Positions 56,983 through 64,000 of a stretch of DNA of 64,000 nt are shown here, piece by piece. Each line of letters begins with the position of its first letter. The first letter of the stretch is position 1. The notes beneath the pieces are model-generated. The model had not been told where the DNA came from, did no database searches, and saw only the letters and a list, made by a program, of their open reading frames with translations. The position numbers were made by a program, and so were the translations under genes. This DNA is from Polytrichum commune. Taxonomy: Eukaryota; Streptophyta; Polytrichopsida; Polytrichales; Polytrichaceae. The DNA lies in contig OX485806.1 of NCBI GenBank assembly GCA_950295325.1, positions 6,822,001 through 6,886,000 on the forward strand, written 5' to 3'.

Positions 56983-57799
56983 ATCACTCCATTGTCAAGT
57001 TGAACACCACGTGCGATGTGAGCCCAAATTCGTGCTCATATTGGTTTTTAAATCTTAAAAATTATATAACAGTTAGGTTTGGTTGGCATGACATGTTCAA
57101 AATCAATAAAAAGAGTGAGGTGTGGGATCAAACTAGTAATTTAACACTATATTTGTTAATTGGAGACTTTGGAAAGTCTCAAAATAAATTGGACCCGTAG
57201 TTTCGGATGCGAATATTGTGAACGTAGGGAACATGGGGAACACTGGCAACATAATGTTCGAAAGATCCATATGTGATGAATATATATGTTTCTAAATATA
57301 GTAATTAGTTGGGGGATAATCAAAACTACGCCAACACAATATTCCAATGTCACAAATTCACAATTATTTTGTATTTTTGATTTTGTATTGAACAAAATTA
57401 ACGAATCTATAAATAGCCATCTGATTTTATATCTAGGGACTCTTGGATGCGTATCCCAAACATAACATCTTAGCCAATTGTGGGTGAATTGAACGGCACA
57501 TCCCAAACGCAACAATATTAAAATAATTTGACAGTGTGTATAAGAAATTGCAAATTAGCATCTGCAATATAATTATATAGTTTGGACTCCACATCCGTAA
57601 ACACAAACATATAAAAAACATTTGATAGCGCATGTGAAGTTGGATTCCACATCCTTAAATCAATACAATCATGATATATAATTGTAATCTATAAAATTGC
57701 TATAAAATGTGTCTAATATAGTATTCGACCCCAATGTCATATATTTCATGAAAAACCAAGACACATTTCAAATAATTGTGGTCCAACCCTACGTCAATA
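56983..57799. other. AT-rich flank downstream of the DUF7869-like gene
   Basis: No gene. Two related words, GACTCCACATCCGTAAA (about 57583) and GATTCCACATCCTTAAA (about 57640), lie 57 bp apart and contain part of the palindrome half-site found upstream of the gene. Confidence 0.4.
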
Positions 57800-60700
57800 T
57801 CATTCTCCATCTTCATCTTCAGCTTCATTTCCATTCTCGACATCGTTTTCTGCAGCAGCAATACGTGCCAAGTTGTCTTTGGCAAAATCTATATGTTTTT
57901 GGGGGATGGTCATTGTCTCTGATTTGGAACCTTTGCGTGGTTTCCAAGCACAAAGTATGGTATCTGTGTTTATCCATATTGGTTCGTATGCTGAGTCCAT
58001 TGTCCATTTGAAACCTTTTTTGGTGTCCCACCCTAAATATGTGCGGAGCACATTTTGATCTTTGGTGCTAGGACGGCAATATTCCACCTCAATTTGATGA
58101 AAATTTGGGCTAGTTGGAACAAAATTTGGTGATGACAATGCTTTTACCAACCAAATCGGTTTAGGGTGCTCCTCATCTCCAGGACGTACGAGGATCATAT
58201 ACCCTTCGTAGCAATCAACAGCCACACGAAATGATGGAGCCGGACGATTACGAGCTGGGCCAACATAATGGTCGTCCGCTGCGAACTCTTCCCGGATGTC
58301 CCCATTGTCGAAGAACATGGCCTCAGATTCCACGATTGTCACTCGGCTTTGTGGCCAAAAACCTTGTGTCAAACATGAATGTGTTTCGACATCGGGTGCT
58401 AGCAATGCTGAGCGAATGCGATCCCAGTACGTAATCAATGGTTCGTGGGTATCCCGAACACGCCTTGTGATGTCTTCCTCGCACAATTCTTTCCAATATT
58501 GGATGAATCCGGATATACCTTTGATGATTTCTGGTCCATTCCTCATGGGGTTGGGTTTGCAAGGCTTCGGCTCCCCGTCAGGTAGCATACATTTGCCCTC
58601 TTCGTTTTGGTGCCATACGAGTATCCCTTCCTCTGGACCCCAATCCGGGGAAGTGCACAAAACTTTGAATTGCATGGCCGGCAGACCATCATCACGCATA
58701 TAGAATCGGAATTGTTGAGCCTTGGTATGGCCCACTAAACGGTCACCTCCCTTAAGAATGAATGGTTCGATAAACGCTTTGAAATCGGGCACTTCTTCAA
58801 TCAAATGCGGGATGACTGGCACATTATCCAAATCCATGTATGATTTCATGAGAAGAGGAATCGTTGGAAAATCCTCCTCGTGCAACTTCATACTCCAACG
58901 TCCAAATGAAGCGTCAATGTCATCATGCGTGTGGCCAACAATAAAAAAAGACACAAACACTTCTTTGAAAATGCCCTTGGCTACGAGCAATGACCAAAAA
59001 CAAAACACGTATCGACATTTGTTGTCTTTGGCACAATTGTCCAGTTGCACATGTAGAGTTGGAGGCAAAGGTTTAGCAAGAACGGTTTGTTCAGGCGGTT
59101 CTTGCAGTGACGATAGACATACTTCTTTCCCCTCTAGCACAGCCTCATAAATCGGTGTTGTTCCACATCCAACAAAAAGAGCGCGAGAGGATGATGTTGG
59201 CGGACTCTCAAGATCTCGTAGAAGTTTTGCAAAAGACCCTACGGTATGATTGGCGTCGCCTGGATAGAAATCCAAGCCATAATGTGCATACTTGACGTCC
59301 ACATGGCCATGTGCAATCATACCTGAATTAAGACATACAAATGAGAAGTACATTCCAATATCATTTATGATAAGGAAATTCAATTTTTCCGCAAGCAGGC
59401 CAAGAAAATGAACAAACACTTACGGATGTACATCCGTAACTCTTAACGATGAGTATGTGGGTTCGCAAAAAAAATGTGAAAACCAACGAACGTGTGACAG
59501 ATATTGGGAGCTTGAAATATCCATCTGTAGCCTTTATTTTCCGTGCATAACAAGGGCACGCAGTCTTCGCATGGTCCACTTTGTCATGAATGATTGTCAA
59601 AACCTCATTCGGCCTCATTATCGATAATGCGCGATTCTTGTAGTAGTCTTGACGGTGTGCCTCTTGGTTGTTGACATGCTCAATGTATTTCCGTTGATGT
59701 CTATTGTGCGACTTAGTCCCTATGGGATGTGCATCTCGAAGGCCCTTGTATTTCTCACAAGCAGAACGCCTGACAAACTTATCCCCAGGCCTCTTCGTAA
59801 TGTACTCTGCAAATTGTTGATTCTTGATCACACTCAATTTTGACAACGAAATCGGCCCACATCCAGCCTTTTCGCCAACCTCATTAACATCCATAAGTAT
59901 GTTCTTCCATTTTGTCCTTGTAGGCAAAACCATCTGGACAACCTTTTCCCCCGACGGCAGAGTCCGTGTCTTGTGTGGCATCGCATCTGCTAATGGCATA
60001 ATGATGGTTGATAGTGTTGCAGCCGCTTGGAGTGTTGCCTCCCTGGGCTTCTTTGTACCAGAGTTGCCATGGAACCGAGAACGCCGTCCTTGCAGCGAGT
60101 AGTTCCGGAACCTATAAAAATCTGCCTTTGAAACTGCATGTATAATGTACCATGCCGTGCAGCATACCTCTATATTTTCCAAGGTCACAACCTTACGACC
60201 TTCGGCATCAAAATGCATGTTGCGATGGACTTCAAGTTTCTTTGCAGATCGCATCCGAAAGTCCGCAAGCCACATCTCTTGTCTCAAAGATTTGATTTTG
60301 TCACGGGGAAATAGTTGGCAACACATTTTTGCACAACAATCCTTTGTTGCTACGGACCTAATAGATGTGTCTCCCAATGTTAGATCTCGACGACGTTGCG
60401 TGGGTTCACGGGGCACGCGAACGGAATCATATTTACACCGACCTTGTCTAGGACGCATTGTGGCGAACAAAGTCTTTTGTATTTCCTCAAAACGACGTGC
60501 ATGATTCCACAAGCTGACACCATCGTGAAGAACACTTCGCAACGACCATCGACGAAGAGAGAATCTCCAACCAGGAGGTACTTCCAATGGATGTAAGGAG
60601 TTCAAAATGCACACCCCAACATCTTCCTCCCCAAGGGGATTTGCATCAATACAGTCCGTAGGATTTGAGTTCCTACAAACACCATTGGCCACGGGGACGC

Positions 60701-60896
60701 CGTATCCATTGACTATGACAACATCAAGATCAATCCATTGTTCCCGCGAATAACCCTCACATGTTGGTATGAAATCATCCTCTGCATTGGCGACACCAAT
60801 TGTAGTTTCATGTTCCATGACACCTTCAAATTCGCTAGCATAGCTTGACGCTTCCGAAGAGAACTCGAATGCACTATCTCGGACGTTGGAATCCAT
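57800..60896 (-). CDS. DUF7869-like protein, putative transposase of an unassigned element
   Basis: Two main exons. Exon 1 runs from ATG 60896 (MDSNVRDSAFEF; an ATG at 60956 adds 20 residues) to about 59500, donor not fixed. Exon 2 starts at 59322 after a strong acceptor (TTAATTCAG) and ends at TGA 57800. Exon 1: acidic N terminus, a Cys cluster (CCAKMCCQLFP), then GRRSRFHGNSGTKKPRE. Exon 2: LHVQLDNCAKDNKCRYVFCF and FFIVGHTHDDIDASFGRW, the D-N-C-x-x-(N)-K and G-H-T-H-x-D-I-D signature I associate with DUF7869 proteins, often repetitive in eukaryote genomes. Asp and His spacing hints at an RNase H-like nuclease, unproven. The last 20 residues are acidic. No stop or frameshift is seen. Confidence 0.6.
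59420..59439. repeat. Palindrome inside the DUF7869-like gene
   Basis: TTACGGATGTACATCCGTAA is a perfect 20-bp palindrome in the likely intron. Its arms (TTACGGA-TCCGTAA) are the outer part of the palindrome arrayed upstream. Confidence 0.8.
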
Positions 60897-61240
60897 GGCC
60901 ACTACAAGTAACCCACATGAAGAGTATGTCAAAATATCCCATTCAATAAATGTCATGGATAGTCCTAACGCTTATTGTCAATGAAACATAATGTCAACAA
61001 TAGTGGATTTCATGGCCTGGAAACAAAGACACATTGGTATACGAACGCGCGTACGTATATCTCCATGTAACAACATTATCAGTGCAAGCACGCGCATACA
61101 TATGTCTTTATTTGTTCATAGTCGGCGGAAAGGTCCAGACAACAAAAACATGACAGTTTTATGGGCGCGCACCCGTAAATCTCTTCGTGGTCAAAGAGGT
61201 CAATATCATGCGCAAATGTTTTCGCAAACTATACAACATA

Positions 61241-62083
61241 GGTATACGGACGTGCGTCCGCAAACATCCGAATGTCAAAAGTCAGTGTTATGCAAGACAC
61301 ACAGAGGTTTAGGAAACCAAGATGTCCAGGTGCCAGGTTCCTACTGTGTATTATGAATGTCAAAATATTATACTATGACATATAGGGTGATGTAAGCTTA
61401 GGGTTTAGGGATCTTATACCTCCATTGACCGTACAGTCTCAATGTAATATTCTACATGGCACATAGTGAAAAGTATGGAACCAAAAGTTTGCAGGTTTAC
61501 GGACGCGCGTCCGTAAACCTCTCTGTACCTCATTACTAGCACAAATAGGTTTAGGTTACTGGACGTGAGTCAAAAAAATTTCATGACAATACAGTCTCGT
61601 TGGTATACTATACATGGCAAGTGGTCATGATGTCAGCTCAGGTGCAATACCGAACAATGGAACAAAAAGGTGCAAAAGTTTACGGACGCGCGTCCGTAAA
61701 CCTCAATGTAGATGAAATAGGTCAAGTATAATTCTCACTGCAATAGATATCCAATCAAGCAAGAGGTTAAAGGTTTACGGACGCGCGTCCGTAAACCTCA
61801 ATGTACATGAAATAGCTAAAGTATAATTCTCACAACAATAGATATCCAATCAAGCAAGAGGTTTAAGGTTTACGGACGCGCGTCCGTAAACCTCAATGTA
61901 AATGAAATAACTCAAGTATAATTCTCACAGAAATACATATCCAATCAAGCAAGAGGTTTAAGGTTTACGGACGCGCGTCCGTAAACCTCAATGTACATGA
62001 AATAGCTCAAGTGCAATTCTCACAGAAATAGATATCCAACCAAGCAAGAGGTTTAAGGTTTACGGACGCACGTCCGTAAACCT
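61241..62083. repeat. Array of 28-bp palindromes with 95-bp period
   Basis: The 28-bp palindrome is AGGTTTACGGACGC followed by its own reverse complement. Perfect copies start at 61493, 61771, 61866 and 61961; a 24-bp core copy is at 61678-61701 and a one-mismatch copy at 62056. From 61676 the spacing is exactly 95 bp five times over, and the linkers (CAATGTACATGAAATAGCT ...) are also similar. Degenerate copies occur nearer the gene at about 61241, 61161 and 61040. The array lies about 0.6-1.2 kb upstream of the DUF7869-like start codon, the layout of subterminal transposase-binding repeats. Confidence 0.85.
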
Positions 62084-63295
62084 CCGTGATTTGCGGCGCC
62101 ATAATAGGACCATTTCACCAGGAACGATACTTGCCATAAACAAAAATCAATCACTATAAGGATCCAGACAGTGCAATCCACATAAAAATTGGCTCCACTA
62201 ATGGGTTTATGGCTTGGAATTTAGTGTTTAGGGTATAAAAGGTCCATTGCAATAGGATCTGTACCTGCACGAAATAAACATCCAGAACACTACAAGGGTC
62301 CAAGCAGCGCAACCCACATCTGAGATGCAAAAATACTCCCTTGGTGGAGGGGTGTCCCCTTAAGTACTGATCGTTTCCCTTGGATCCGTTTTCCAACATA
62401 GGATACTAGCCACCATCTACGTCCTATAAATAAAAACCTAACATTACTACATTCCGTGTGCCAGCCTTACAATGGAATGTGTATTCATAGTGGACAACAT
62501 GCATAGACGATGAGTCCACATAATGACAAAGCAAAAGGCATCTACGTATTTATGGTGGACAACAAAGAAAACAGGCTAATAATATATGAGCATTGAACAT
62601 TGTTGAGGGGTGGTTTATAATATTGAAGTACCTAATATTGAGAGGTCATTGTAGAACTAGGAGACAGAAAATTATAGTGTCGTGTGAAACATCAACCACA
62701 ACAACAATAGTACATGGAGTATAAAAATACGTGTCATTCAAAATTAAACTAGCATCTATTTTATTGTTTTGCATACGATGTAATGATATTCACTCCAATA
62801 TCATGTTATCTCCTCTCATCTAGCATTTAAACTAGTAATTACATTTGCCACCACCCTACCATCCAACCCGTTTAATTTACCCACTTTTACACACCTATAC
62901 ATAATTATATTAATACGTACACAAACTTTGAGCGCCTAGATGCCATGAAAATAGCACATCTATTGTCATAGGCACTATGGGTTGCTTTAAAATCAATATT
63001 CTCAATTTCCTCTCTTAACCTTAGGGCCCCCTTCAATACATCAACATTTATTTCAAAAAAAATCATACTAGCATTCTAAATGTACTATACGTGAGACAAA
63101 AAACAATTTTTAGTACCCCATGTACATTATCTACAATATTGACTCAAACAATAGCAGTTGTTGTTCTAAGTAACATTATGAGCCCAACAAAGCATAATGG
63201 AGAGAAGGGGAGGGTAGGGTATCCAAATATTATAAAGGCAAGCAATTTTAAGTTGGTGACAGAAGGGGGATACTCTCATTAGTTCATACGTGGTA
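62084..63295. other. Gene-free stretch beyond the palindrome array
   Basis: No gene or recognised transposon end. AT-rich, with short motif-free frames. Confidence 0.4.
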
Positions 63296-63353
63296 CCCTA
63301 AATCCTAAACCCTAAACCCTAAACCCTAAACCCTATACCCTATACCCTATAAC
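63296..63353. repeat. Interstitial telomere-type repeat
   Basis: One CCCTAAAT, then several CCCTAAA units, then three CCCTATA variants. CCCTAAA is the Arabidopsis-type plant telomere repeat. The short degenerate tract with normal DNA on both sides indicates an interstitial site rather than a chromosome end. Confidence 0.75.
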
Positions 63354-63694
63354 CGCCCACCCCTGAACAAACACGACGACATACAGTACGCATGGTTAAC
63401 TGAATAACTCCCAATACATGTGTAGCCTTAAGTGGAAGTAATTCAAAACTATATGACTACCTTTAAATTTTGTAAAATAAAACCATAAACATTTCAAATG
63501 TGAAGCAAATTTAGGGGTAACCTTACCTTTCATTTTTTTAAATCTTTCTTTGGCTTTAAACCATTTTCTTTAAACATATACTTTTGATGAAAGGTTTTGA
63601 AGATCGTATATTGGTATTCTATAATCGAGTCCTAAACACAACTCACCACCGAAAGAAAACTCCAAATATAAACAAGTTTGCTACTACTTATAAG

Positions 63695-63875
63695 CGATAA
63701 TACAAGCTGAGGCCTATGTGTGGAAGGATTGGATGGATCCGAAAGGTTGTTTAATGTACAAGAGGGATGTACATTCAACACATACCCATGCATTTTGTTT
63801 TAATACAAGCTTAGACCTATGTGTGGAGGGATTGAATTAATCCGTAATGTTGTTTAAGGTATTACAAGCATATGA
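63695..63875. repeat. Diverged 70-bp direct repeat
   Basis: AATACAAGCTGAGGCCTATG (about 63700) recurs as AATACAAGCTTAGACCTATG (about 63802), and similarity continues for about 60 bp. No coding sequence. The final 120 bases of the window hold nothing recognisable. Confidence 0.55.
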
Positions 63876-64000
63876 ATTCTCCCCATATCTCGATGTTTCG
63901 GTTTTGTTAATTGCGTCTCACAACTTATTGCGATAATTGAGGGATTCACAAGTATTTCTTGGCAAAGTTTCATGAGAATTTGTGGCCAATTGGTATATTG

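Follow-up and report, generated by a model that had tools for sequence, protein, structure and literature searches.

We analysed a window of 64,000 nucleotides (the whole stretch C4:6822001-6886000, contig OX485806.1 of the Polytrichum commune assembly GCA_950295325.1), in which a minus-strand gene encoding a protein with the Pfam domain DUF7869 is preceded by an array of long palindromes. The gene and the array are parts of a complete DNA transposon of 17,407 bp. This is as good as certain, and the element has apparently been active recently. It starts within the window and ends beyond it, where a second gene, here called the partner gene, lies on the opposite (plus) strand and diverges from the DUF7869 gene. 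The searched genome (408 Mb, 64 contigs) contains three families of DUF7869 elements, that of the window and two that we refer to as the 502-aa and 692-aa families, and each of them carries a distinct palindrome in similar positions. Our best reading is a lineage of large DNA transposons that has apparently not been described before and whose palindrome-based self-recognition changes fast. Our literature search returned no title or abstract describing such an element; Repbase lay outside that search, so that an earlier description under another name is possible. The first-pass annotation of the window had recognised the gene and the first array, while the second gene, the second array, the palindromes in the partner introns, the termini and the 4-bp duplications had escaped it.

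The element, its ends and its copies

Both ends and internal regions of the element recur on seven contigs, C1-C7 (42-78 Mb). When the array region (61400-62083) served as the genome query, the full 684 bp were matched at 31 of the 40 scored places, the window's own included: 28 of these at 98-100% identity and three at 94-95%, the other nine places being partial matches at 94-98%. Identity was 97-100% in most scored copies across the searches with the array, the left side and the right side. On the left, 32 of the 39 other places lose homology at 57140-57143 and the remaining seven at 57129-57139. On the right homology ends at L002:749-759 in all 39, which corresponds to about 74549 when the numbering of the window is continued past its end.

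Both ends were retrieved for 20 copies, which with the window's own makes 21. The element starts with AACACTATATTYGTTA in these copies, and its right end is a near complement of this sequence; at either end one copy is off by one base. An exact 4-bp target duplication flanks all 21 copies, compared to a mean of 1.5 after shuffling, and no other length between 2 and 8 bp fits more than one of the 21. The duplicated bases are variable with a preference for A/T, and include ATTT, AGGT, ATGG and GTAG. One copy (L003/L013) sits in a local tandem repeat, of which an unoccupied unit carries a single ATTT, as judged by eye. Genome-wide, the degenerate 28-mer terminus has 225 exact matches, and its reversed control has none. 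The multiple copies, the inverted ends, the exact duplications of fixed length and the unoccupied ATTT unit thus identify a cut-and-paste transposon. A single-copy or self-regulating host gene is ruled out by the recurrence of ends and internal regions on C1-C7.

The first-pass annotation had proposed a DNA transposon that includes the array, and had suggested a genome search and an alignment of copies to find shared boundaries. These gave the termini at 57143 and 74549 and the 4-bp duplications, and bore the proposal out. The two outcomes that it had named as fatal, a single-copy gene and homology that ends before the array, did not occur. A candidate lectin receptor kinase, recognised by eye, adjoins the element; like the CCCTAAA repeats described below, it points to a land plant as host.

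Two genes and their palindromes

The DUF7869 gene, picked out at first pass by its GHTHDDID and LDNC-K signatures, consists of two long open frames joined by an intron. Comparison of families gives a model of two exons and ~975 aa, with predicted exon limits. The match to DUF7869 (PF25273) in exon 2 scores 133.4 bits against a cut-off of 26 (E 9.3e-39), and exon 1 is 69% identical to its counterpart in the 502-aa family across the C-terminal 306 aa. In seven of seven aligned DUF7869 sequences the motif GHTH.D.D is invariant, and a DN..NK motif precedes it; conserved acidic residues are seen, and one copy (L051) has QASN where the others have Q-DN. A genome search for DUF7869 gave 1,491 candidates, of which 150 were scored, all of them above the cut-off. 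A separate DUF7869 group nearer to the Pfam consensus (IIDGMDQ, QADNCGRENKN, GHTHEDIDQ), in which some sequences have stop codons, was also observed (L049-L053). No DUF7869 was found in a search of 14 control genomes, and no relatives were confirmed on viral contigs with exon 2 as the query or in phage records with the 692-aa frame as the query. Pfam lists the function of the domain as unknown, and its name did not occur in the literature searched. The domain is present in elements with two unrelated kinds of termini. Because of this, and of the invariant GHTH.D.D with its preceding DN..NK, the protein is, judging by sequence, very likely the transposase of the element. We could not place it in any known superfamily, in agreement with the first-pass suggestion of a family not assigned to one. 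With regard to an RNase H-like DDE/D core, a single-sequence fold of exon 2 had a mean pLDDT of 32, and a profile of seven DUF7869 sequences matched nothing among the PDB sequences. The best hits of the DUF7869 sequence to solved structures (E 0.37 or worse) were not taken as real.

The palindromes upstream of this gene were described at first pass as perfect 28-mers in a 95-bp phase, with degenerating copies towards the gene and a 20-bp relative in its intron, and this description holds (Table 1). The perfect 28-mer AGGTTTACGGACGCGCGTCCGTAAACCT starts at 61493, 61771, 61866 and 61961. At 61678 the palindrome is perfect over 24 bp, and at 62056 the arms are intact around a CA in place of the central CG. 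The five cores of the array start at 61679, 61774, 61869, 61964 and 62059, exactly 95 bp apart. The element as a whole has 24 palindrome sites; a scan with another criterion also gave 24, in a set that is not identical. Besides the two arrays, a site or cluster lies in each of the three assigned partner introns, one site in the DUF7869 intron, one within partner exon 3 and a degenerate one after partner exon 4, with further ones dispersed around the arrays. Neither array of the window element comes closer than 4.5 kb to an end; this central position does not fit the likening at first pass to the subterminal repeat clusters of CACTA and Mutator elements. The palindromes are not due to chance, since none of 10 single-base shuffles of the array region contained such a site and since the genome holds 713 exact window-type 24-mers and no match to the pattern read backwards. 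By hand count, 45 of the 50 window-type palindromes among the matches listed (all on C1) lie within 20 kb of a listed terminus. In five further regions (L061-L065) the spacing varies (53, 97 and 110/130 bp among the examples) around a constant core, and the centre of the window type is CG in 64 of 86 sites. One window-type palindrome (L062:8016-8057) extends well past the fixed core, with 42 bp of perfect symmetry about its centre.

Four exons are assigned to the partner gene; the start of exon 3 is one among several possible, and further exons downstream are possible. The last assigned exon (~72483-73250) encodes an NIF-type HAD domain (PF03031, E 4e-13), and Pfam finds this HAD exon in all three families. 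The Pfam scans of partner exons in the three families contained neither DUF1985 nor DUF287. Exon 1 has the motif (D/N)GQH in all three families, which is also known from ParB/DGQHR proteins; domain library scans did not confirm this assignment. Against the sequences of solved structures the HAD exon had no match, and a match of exon 1 to interleukin-2 (E 0.0055) was not taken as real. In the window and 502-aa families the partner start codon directly follows a TTGCAG-type acceptor, and the array before this gene may therefore sit in a spliced leader. In the examined copy of each of the three families, CCCTAAA repeats lie between the two genes, possibly as a promoter element. In the window element a pyrimidine-rich, low-complexity stretch of 0.5 kb (65523-66048, L001:1723-2248) lies there as well.

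Table 1. Coordinates of the element and its features, in the numbering of the window continued past its end
Feature	Position	Strand	Remarks
Target site duplication ATTT	57139..57142	+	second copy 74550-74553, after the right end
Left 6.9 kb of the 17,407-bp transposon	57143..64000		runs beyond the window to 74549 (L001, L002:1-749)
Left terminal inverted repeat AACACTATATTTGTTAATTGGAGACTTT	57143..57170	+	right end AACACTATATTCGTTATTTGGAGACTTT, minus strand, ending 74549
DUF7869 gene, exon 2, putative transposase	57800..59322	-	PF25273; limits from the two other families; LDNC..DNK and GHTHDDID
DUF7869 gene, intron	59323..59491	-	placed by comparison with other families; 692-aa family without intron, frame straight through
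20-bp palindrome TTACGGATGTACATCCGTAA	59420..59439		in the DUF7869 intron
DUF7869 gene, exon 1	59492..60896	-	open frame 59361-60971; putative region of the first catalytic Asp VLTIIHDKVDHAKTACP
Three degenerate palindromes (61038, 61158, 61243) and a perfect 28-mer (61493-61520)	61038..61520		between array 1 and the DUF7869 gene
Array 1, five copies, 95-bp spacing	61678..62083		upstream of the DUF7869 gene
Telomere-type CCCTAAA repeat	63295..63354	+	between the divergent genes
Second array, 135-bp spacing	core starts 66816-67356		before the plus-strand partner gene
Partner gene exons	~67749-69038, 69171-70490, 70760-72142, 72483-73250	+	predicted

Related families and the reading of the palindromes

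The 502-aa family was read in one full copy (L058 and L047) of 16,030 bp with termini like those of the window element. Its palindrome is GTTTGGGTCG-NN-CGACCCAAAC, with eleven forms of the centre within that one element. The 692-aa family was read in two full copies of 25.2 kb with the unrelated termini ATGGGGATATTAACT; its palindrome is CCACGGGTG-NN-CACCCGTGG, with 21 sites per copy, single palindromes about 0.2 and 0.6 kb from the two ends, and AA or TT at the centre of 22 of 23 sites. Both families share the two-gene layout, with the HAD exon in the partner. Palindromes occupy matching places in the 502-aa element, namely in the two arrays, in each of introns 1-3 and in the corresponding part of exon 3, and the site after partner exon 4 is degenerate there as in the window element. 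Exact palindromes of the window, 502-aa and 692-aa types number 713, 9,731 and 819 genome-wide (11,263 in total), and exact termini 225, 672 and 80, with no match for any control. From terminus counts and lengths we estimate roughly 490 elements, about 2% of the genome. The generic marks of cut-and-paste transposition are found in all three families: terminal inverted repeats, and a fixed 4-bp duplication in 21/21, 10/10 and 8/10 copies of the window, 502-aa and 692-aa families, respectively, the further copies of the latter two having been picked as neighbouring pairs of facing ends. The three full-length copies read from these two families also have it. An internal deletion derivative of the 502-aa family (L108, C1:42393117-42397976) is 4,780 bp long, with intact ends and a CACT duplication. 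It has no palindrome of any of the three types, and at its deletion junction the region of DUF7869 exon 1 meets a fragment of the HAD region.

The two genes diverge at different rates. Between the window and 502-aa families, identity in the two main parts of DUF7869 is 66% and 69%, and in the N-terminal 180 residues 46%; for the partner, whose exons 1 and 2 can be clearly aligned, the values are 28% (first 190 aa), 40%, 37% and 43%. The half-sites of the two families differ by eye at 4 of 10 positions. Towards the 692-aa family, DUF7869 exon 2 retains 50% over 258 residues and 33% over 257, and forced alignments of the partner give about 20%, 18% and 37%. The first-pass annotation had taken the DUF7869 protein itself to bind the palindrome as a dimer. 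Since the main parts of DUF7869 stay 66-69% identical while the half-sites differ, and the partner falls to 28-43%, the partner is the better candidate for a protein that reads the palindromes. Judging by sequence, their reader is likely to be a homodimer that the element encodes, and the best analogy makes the reader the partner, with an anti-silencing or activating effect. The mechanism that we propose would then run as follows. DUF7869 would recognise the element ends and move the element. One element-encoded protein, most likely the partner, would bind the palindromes as a homodimer and, once bound, keep the copies of its own family transcribed, as an activator or an anti-silencing factor in the manner of VANC, the second protein of the Arabidopsis VANDAL21 (Hi) element. 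A change in the reader would spread together with the change in its sites, each family answering only to its own protein. As a whole, a DUF7869 transposase with a fast-changing, VANC-like partner that binds the palindrome of its own family is for us the best explanation, and we consider it somewhat more probable than all else combined.

Several findings weigh against this explanation. Domain library scans found no known DNA-binding domain in either protein. The HAD motif of the partner is DxNG (DLNG or DVNG) in all three families, and active phosphatases of HAD type carry DxD; the substitution suggests that phosphatase activity has been lost. The partner of the 692-aa family has the same exon order and is clearly recognised by its HAD exon only, since the match of exon 2 is weak (27% over 102 aa, E 1.5e-6) and that of exon 1 not significant (E 0.33), the shared (D/N)GQH notwithstanding. 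The variable N terminus of DUF7869 (46%) could be the reader instead, and two of the ten further copies of the 25-kb family lack the duplication. Finally, just past the core the arms are still complementary, in a sequence that varies from site to site, and a homodimer would not require this of its site. For this comparison sites were picked by their inner 12 bases only, near duplicates were dropped and flanks were shuffled among sites, in 42 uncorrected position tests. Position 11 from the centre is complementary in 19 of 25 window-type sites (10.4 expected, reached in 0 of 1,000 shuffles) and in 9 of 11 502-aa-type sites (3.9 expected, reached in 5 of 1,000). Positions 10, 12, 13 and 17 show a weaker effect in the window type only, and seven 692-aa-type sites from part of one element show no clear flank complementarity. 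Palindrome shape, beyond any one sequence, seems to be renewed locally.

Could the palindromes instead be binding sites of the DUF7869 transposase for assembly of a transposition complex, like the subterminal repeats of CACTA and Mutator elements? They are present in each of the three long elements read from end to end; single ones lie near the ends of the 25-kb element and one in the DUF7869 intron of the window family, and the N terminus of DUF7869 is variable. However, the arrays lie centrally by the starts of both genes, further sites are intronic, and the window and 502-aa families have different palindromes in spite of nearly the same termini and of main transposase parts 66-69% identical. 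The 4,780-bp derivative has intact ends and its CACT duplication without any palindrome, although this is one copy whose deletion could postdate insertion. We regard this alternative as unlikely, while giving it more weight than the two that follow. RNA hairpins in transcribed leaders and introns, serving for example splicing or small-RNA production, would agree with the several palindromes within the first ~50 nt of introns, with complementarity that continues past the core with varying sequence, and with the eleven centre forms of the 502-aa element. A hairpin alone would not need a fixed half-site sequence, though, and the window-type centre is mostly CG (64/86). Nor is there a preference for G-U on the presumed sense strand: among 77 unique sites (L064 excluded) we counted 21 sense-wobble, 19 antisense-wobble and 27 other mismatches. 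Hairpins therefore rank slightly lower still. The least probable of the three, and in our estimate an improbable one, is that the palindromes are functionless satellite-like repeats, perfected by template switching during replication and multiplied by unequal crossing over. Tandem arrays and the site-specific extension of the arms past the core speak for such an origin, yet nearly one core is kept at 24 dispersed places per element, including single intron sites and matching exon sites, and in each family the whole set has a different core; under neutral drift, single sites so dispersed would hardly have stayed alike.

It is tempting to go beyond the explanation by a VANC-like partner and to speculate that DUF7869 defines an undescribed superfamily of giant transposons, in which every family would have a private palindrome code, read by the partner at about twenty sites or more in each element and at hundreds to thousands per genome, with reader and sites rewritten together whenever a new family forms. 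The complementarity past the core would then mean that one arm is copied from the other, and a new code could spread fast through one element. We put this forward tentatively, as something that may well prove wrong. Were the explanation by a VANC-like partner correct, a domain of unknown function would turn out to be the transposase of a lineage of large elements, and three palindromes with 11,263 exact sites in one genome would offer ready-made tests of protein-DNA co-evolution. The palindrome system might also yield tools for sequence-specific control of silencing.

Comparison with known systems

CACTA/EnSpm elements and their relatives (Mirage, Chapaev, Transib, Plavaka) invite comparison because CACTA lies within the ends of two of the three families, and repeated binding motifs inside CACTA elements are known. 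CACTA/EnSpm elements have a CACTA/CACTG terminus and a 2-3 bp duplication. By contrast, the ends described here start with AACACTA or ATGGGGA and not with CA, the only Pfam match of the protein is DUF7869, and the arrays are central. AA precedes the left CACTA and TT follows the right TAGTG in 20 of 21 copies, the exception having TAGC at the right end. These bases being constant, a 3-bp duplication directly outside CACTA..TAGTG is impossible, and one outside AACACTA fits none of the 21 copies. The two constant bases outside CACTA together with the 4-bp duplication rule out membership in CACTA. The piggyBac and Kolobok superfamilies, which target TTAA, do not fit either, as none of the 21 duplications is TTAA. 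Lanisha is another cut-and-paste candidate; its authors are reportedly moss genome workers, so the host ranges may overlap.

PMC12730594 gives 8 bp as the duplication of Zisupton, and the 4 bp seen here do not fit Zisupton/KDZ. It gives 2-5 bp for the EnSpm group; duplication length alone therefore does not separate our elements from that group, since 4 bp falls within its range. The same paper ascribes to the EnSpm-Mirage-Chapaev-Transib group, including Lanisha, two motifs that lie between the second and the last catalytic residue, C(2)C and H(3-4)H, and CA..TG termini in most cases (PMC12730594). The termini here are AA..TT and AT..AT. Neither motif was found in any of 10 sequences from the DN to 12 residues past GHTH.D.D, a span that does not cover a catalytic residue further downstream; the other 10 of 20 input sequences had no pair of DN and GHTH and were left out. 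Lanisha itself is a proposed cut-and-paste superfamily (Repbase Reports 2020, as cited in PMC12730594). The elements differ from it in that its stated motifs were not found; this compares them with the citing description only, and identity with Lanisha is possible.

The closest parallel in organisation is VANDAL21 (Hi) with VANC of Arabidopsis. VANDALs are Mutator-like elements with 9-bp duplications and a MULE transposase. VANC proteins have DUF1985/DUF287 domains, whereas the scanned partner exons showed neither, and homology to VANC was not detected. The VANC21 motif, the 9-base YAGTATTAY, is not palindromic, and its arrays run in one orientation (PMC5735166). The paper also reports that VANC motifs occur in introns and upstream regions, that their tandem repeats vary between related elements, and that the VANDAL transposase is more conserved than VANC (PMC5735166). 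As far as that description goes, our elements are alike in being large, in pairing a conserved transposase with a faster-evolving second protein, and in carrying short upstream and intron motifs, often in tandem, that differ between related families. If our explanation is correct, the arms-race logic of VANDAL elements would have in them a second example, apparently unrelated to the first.

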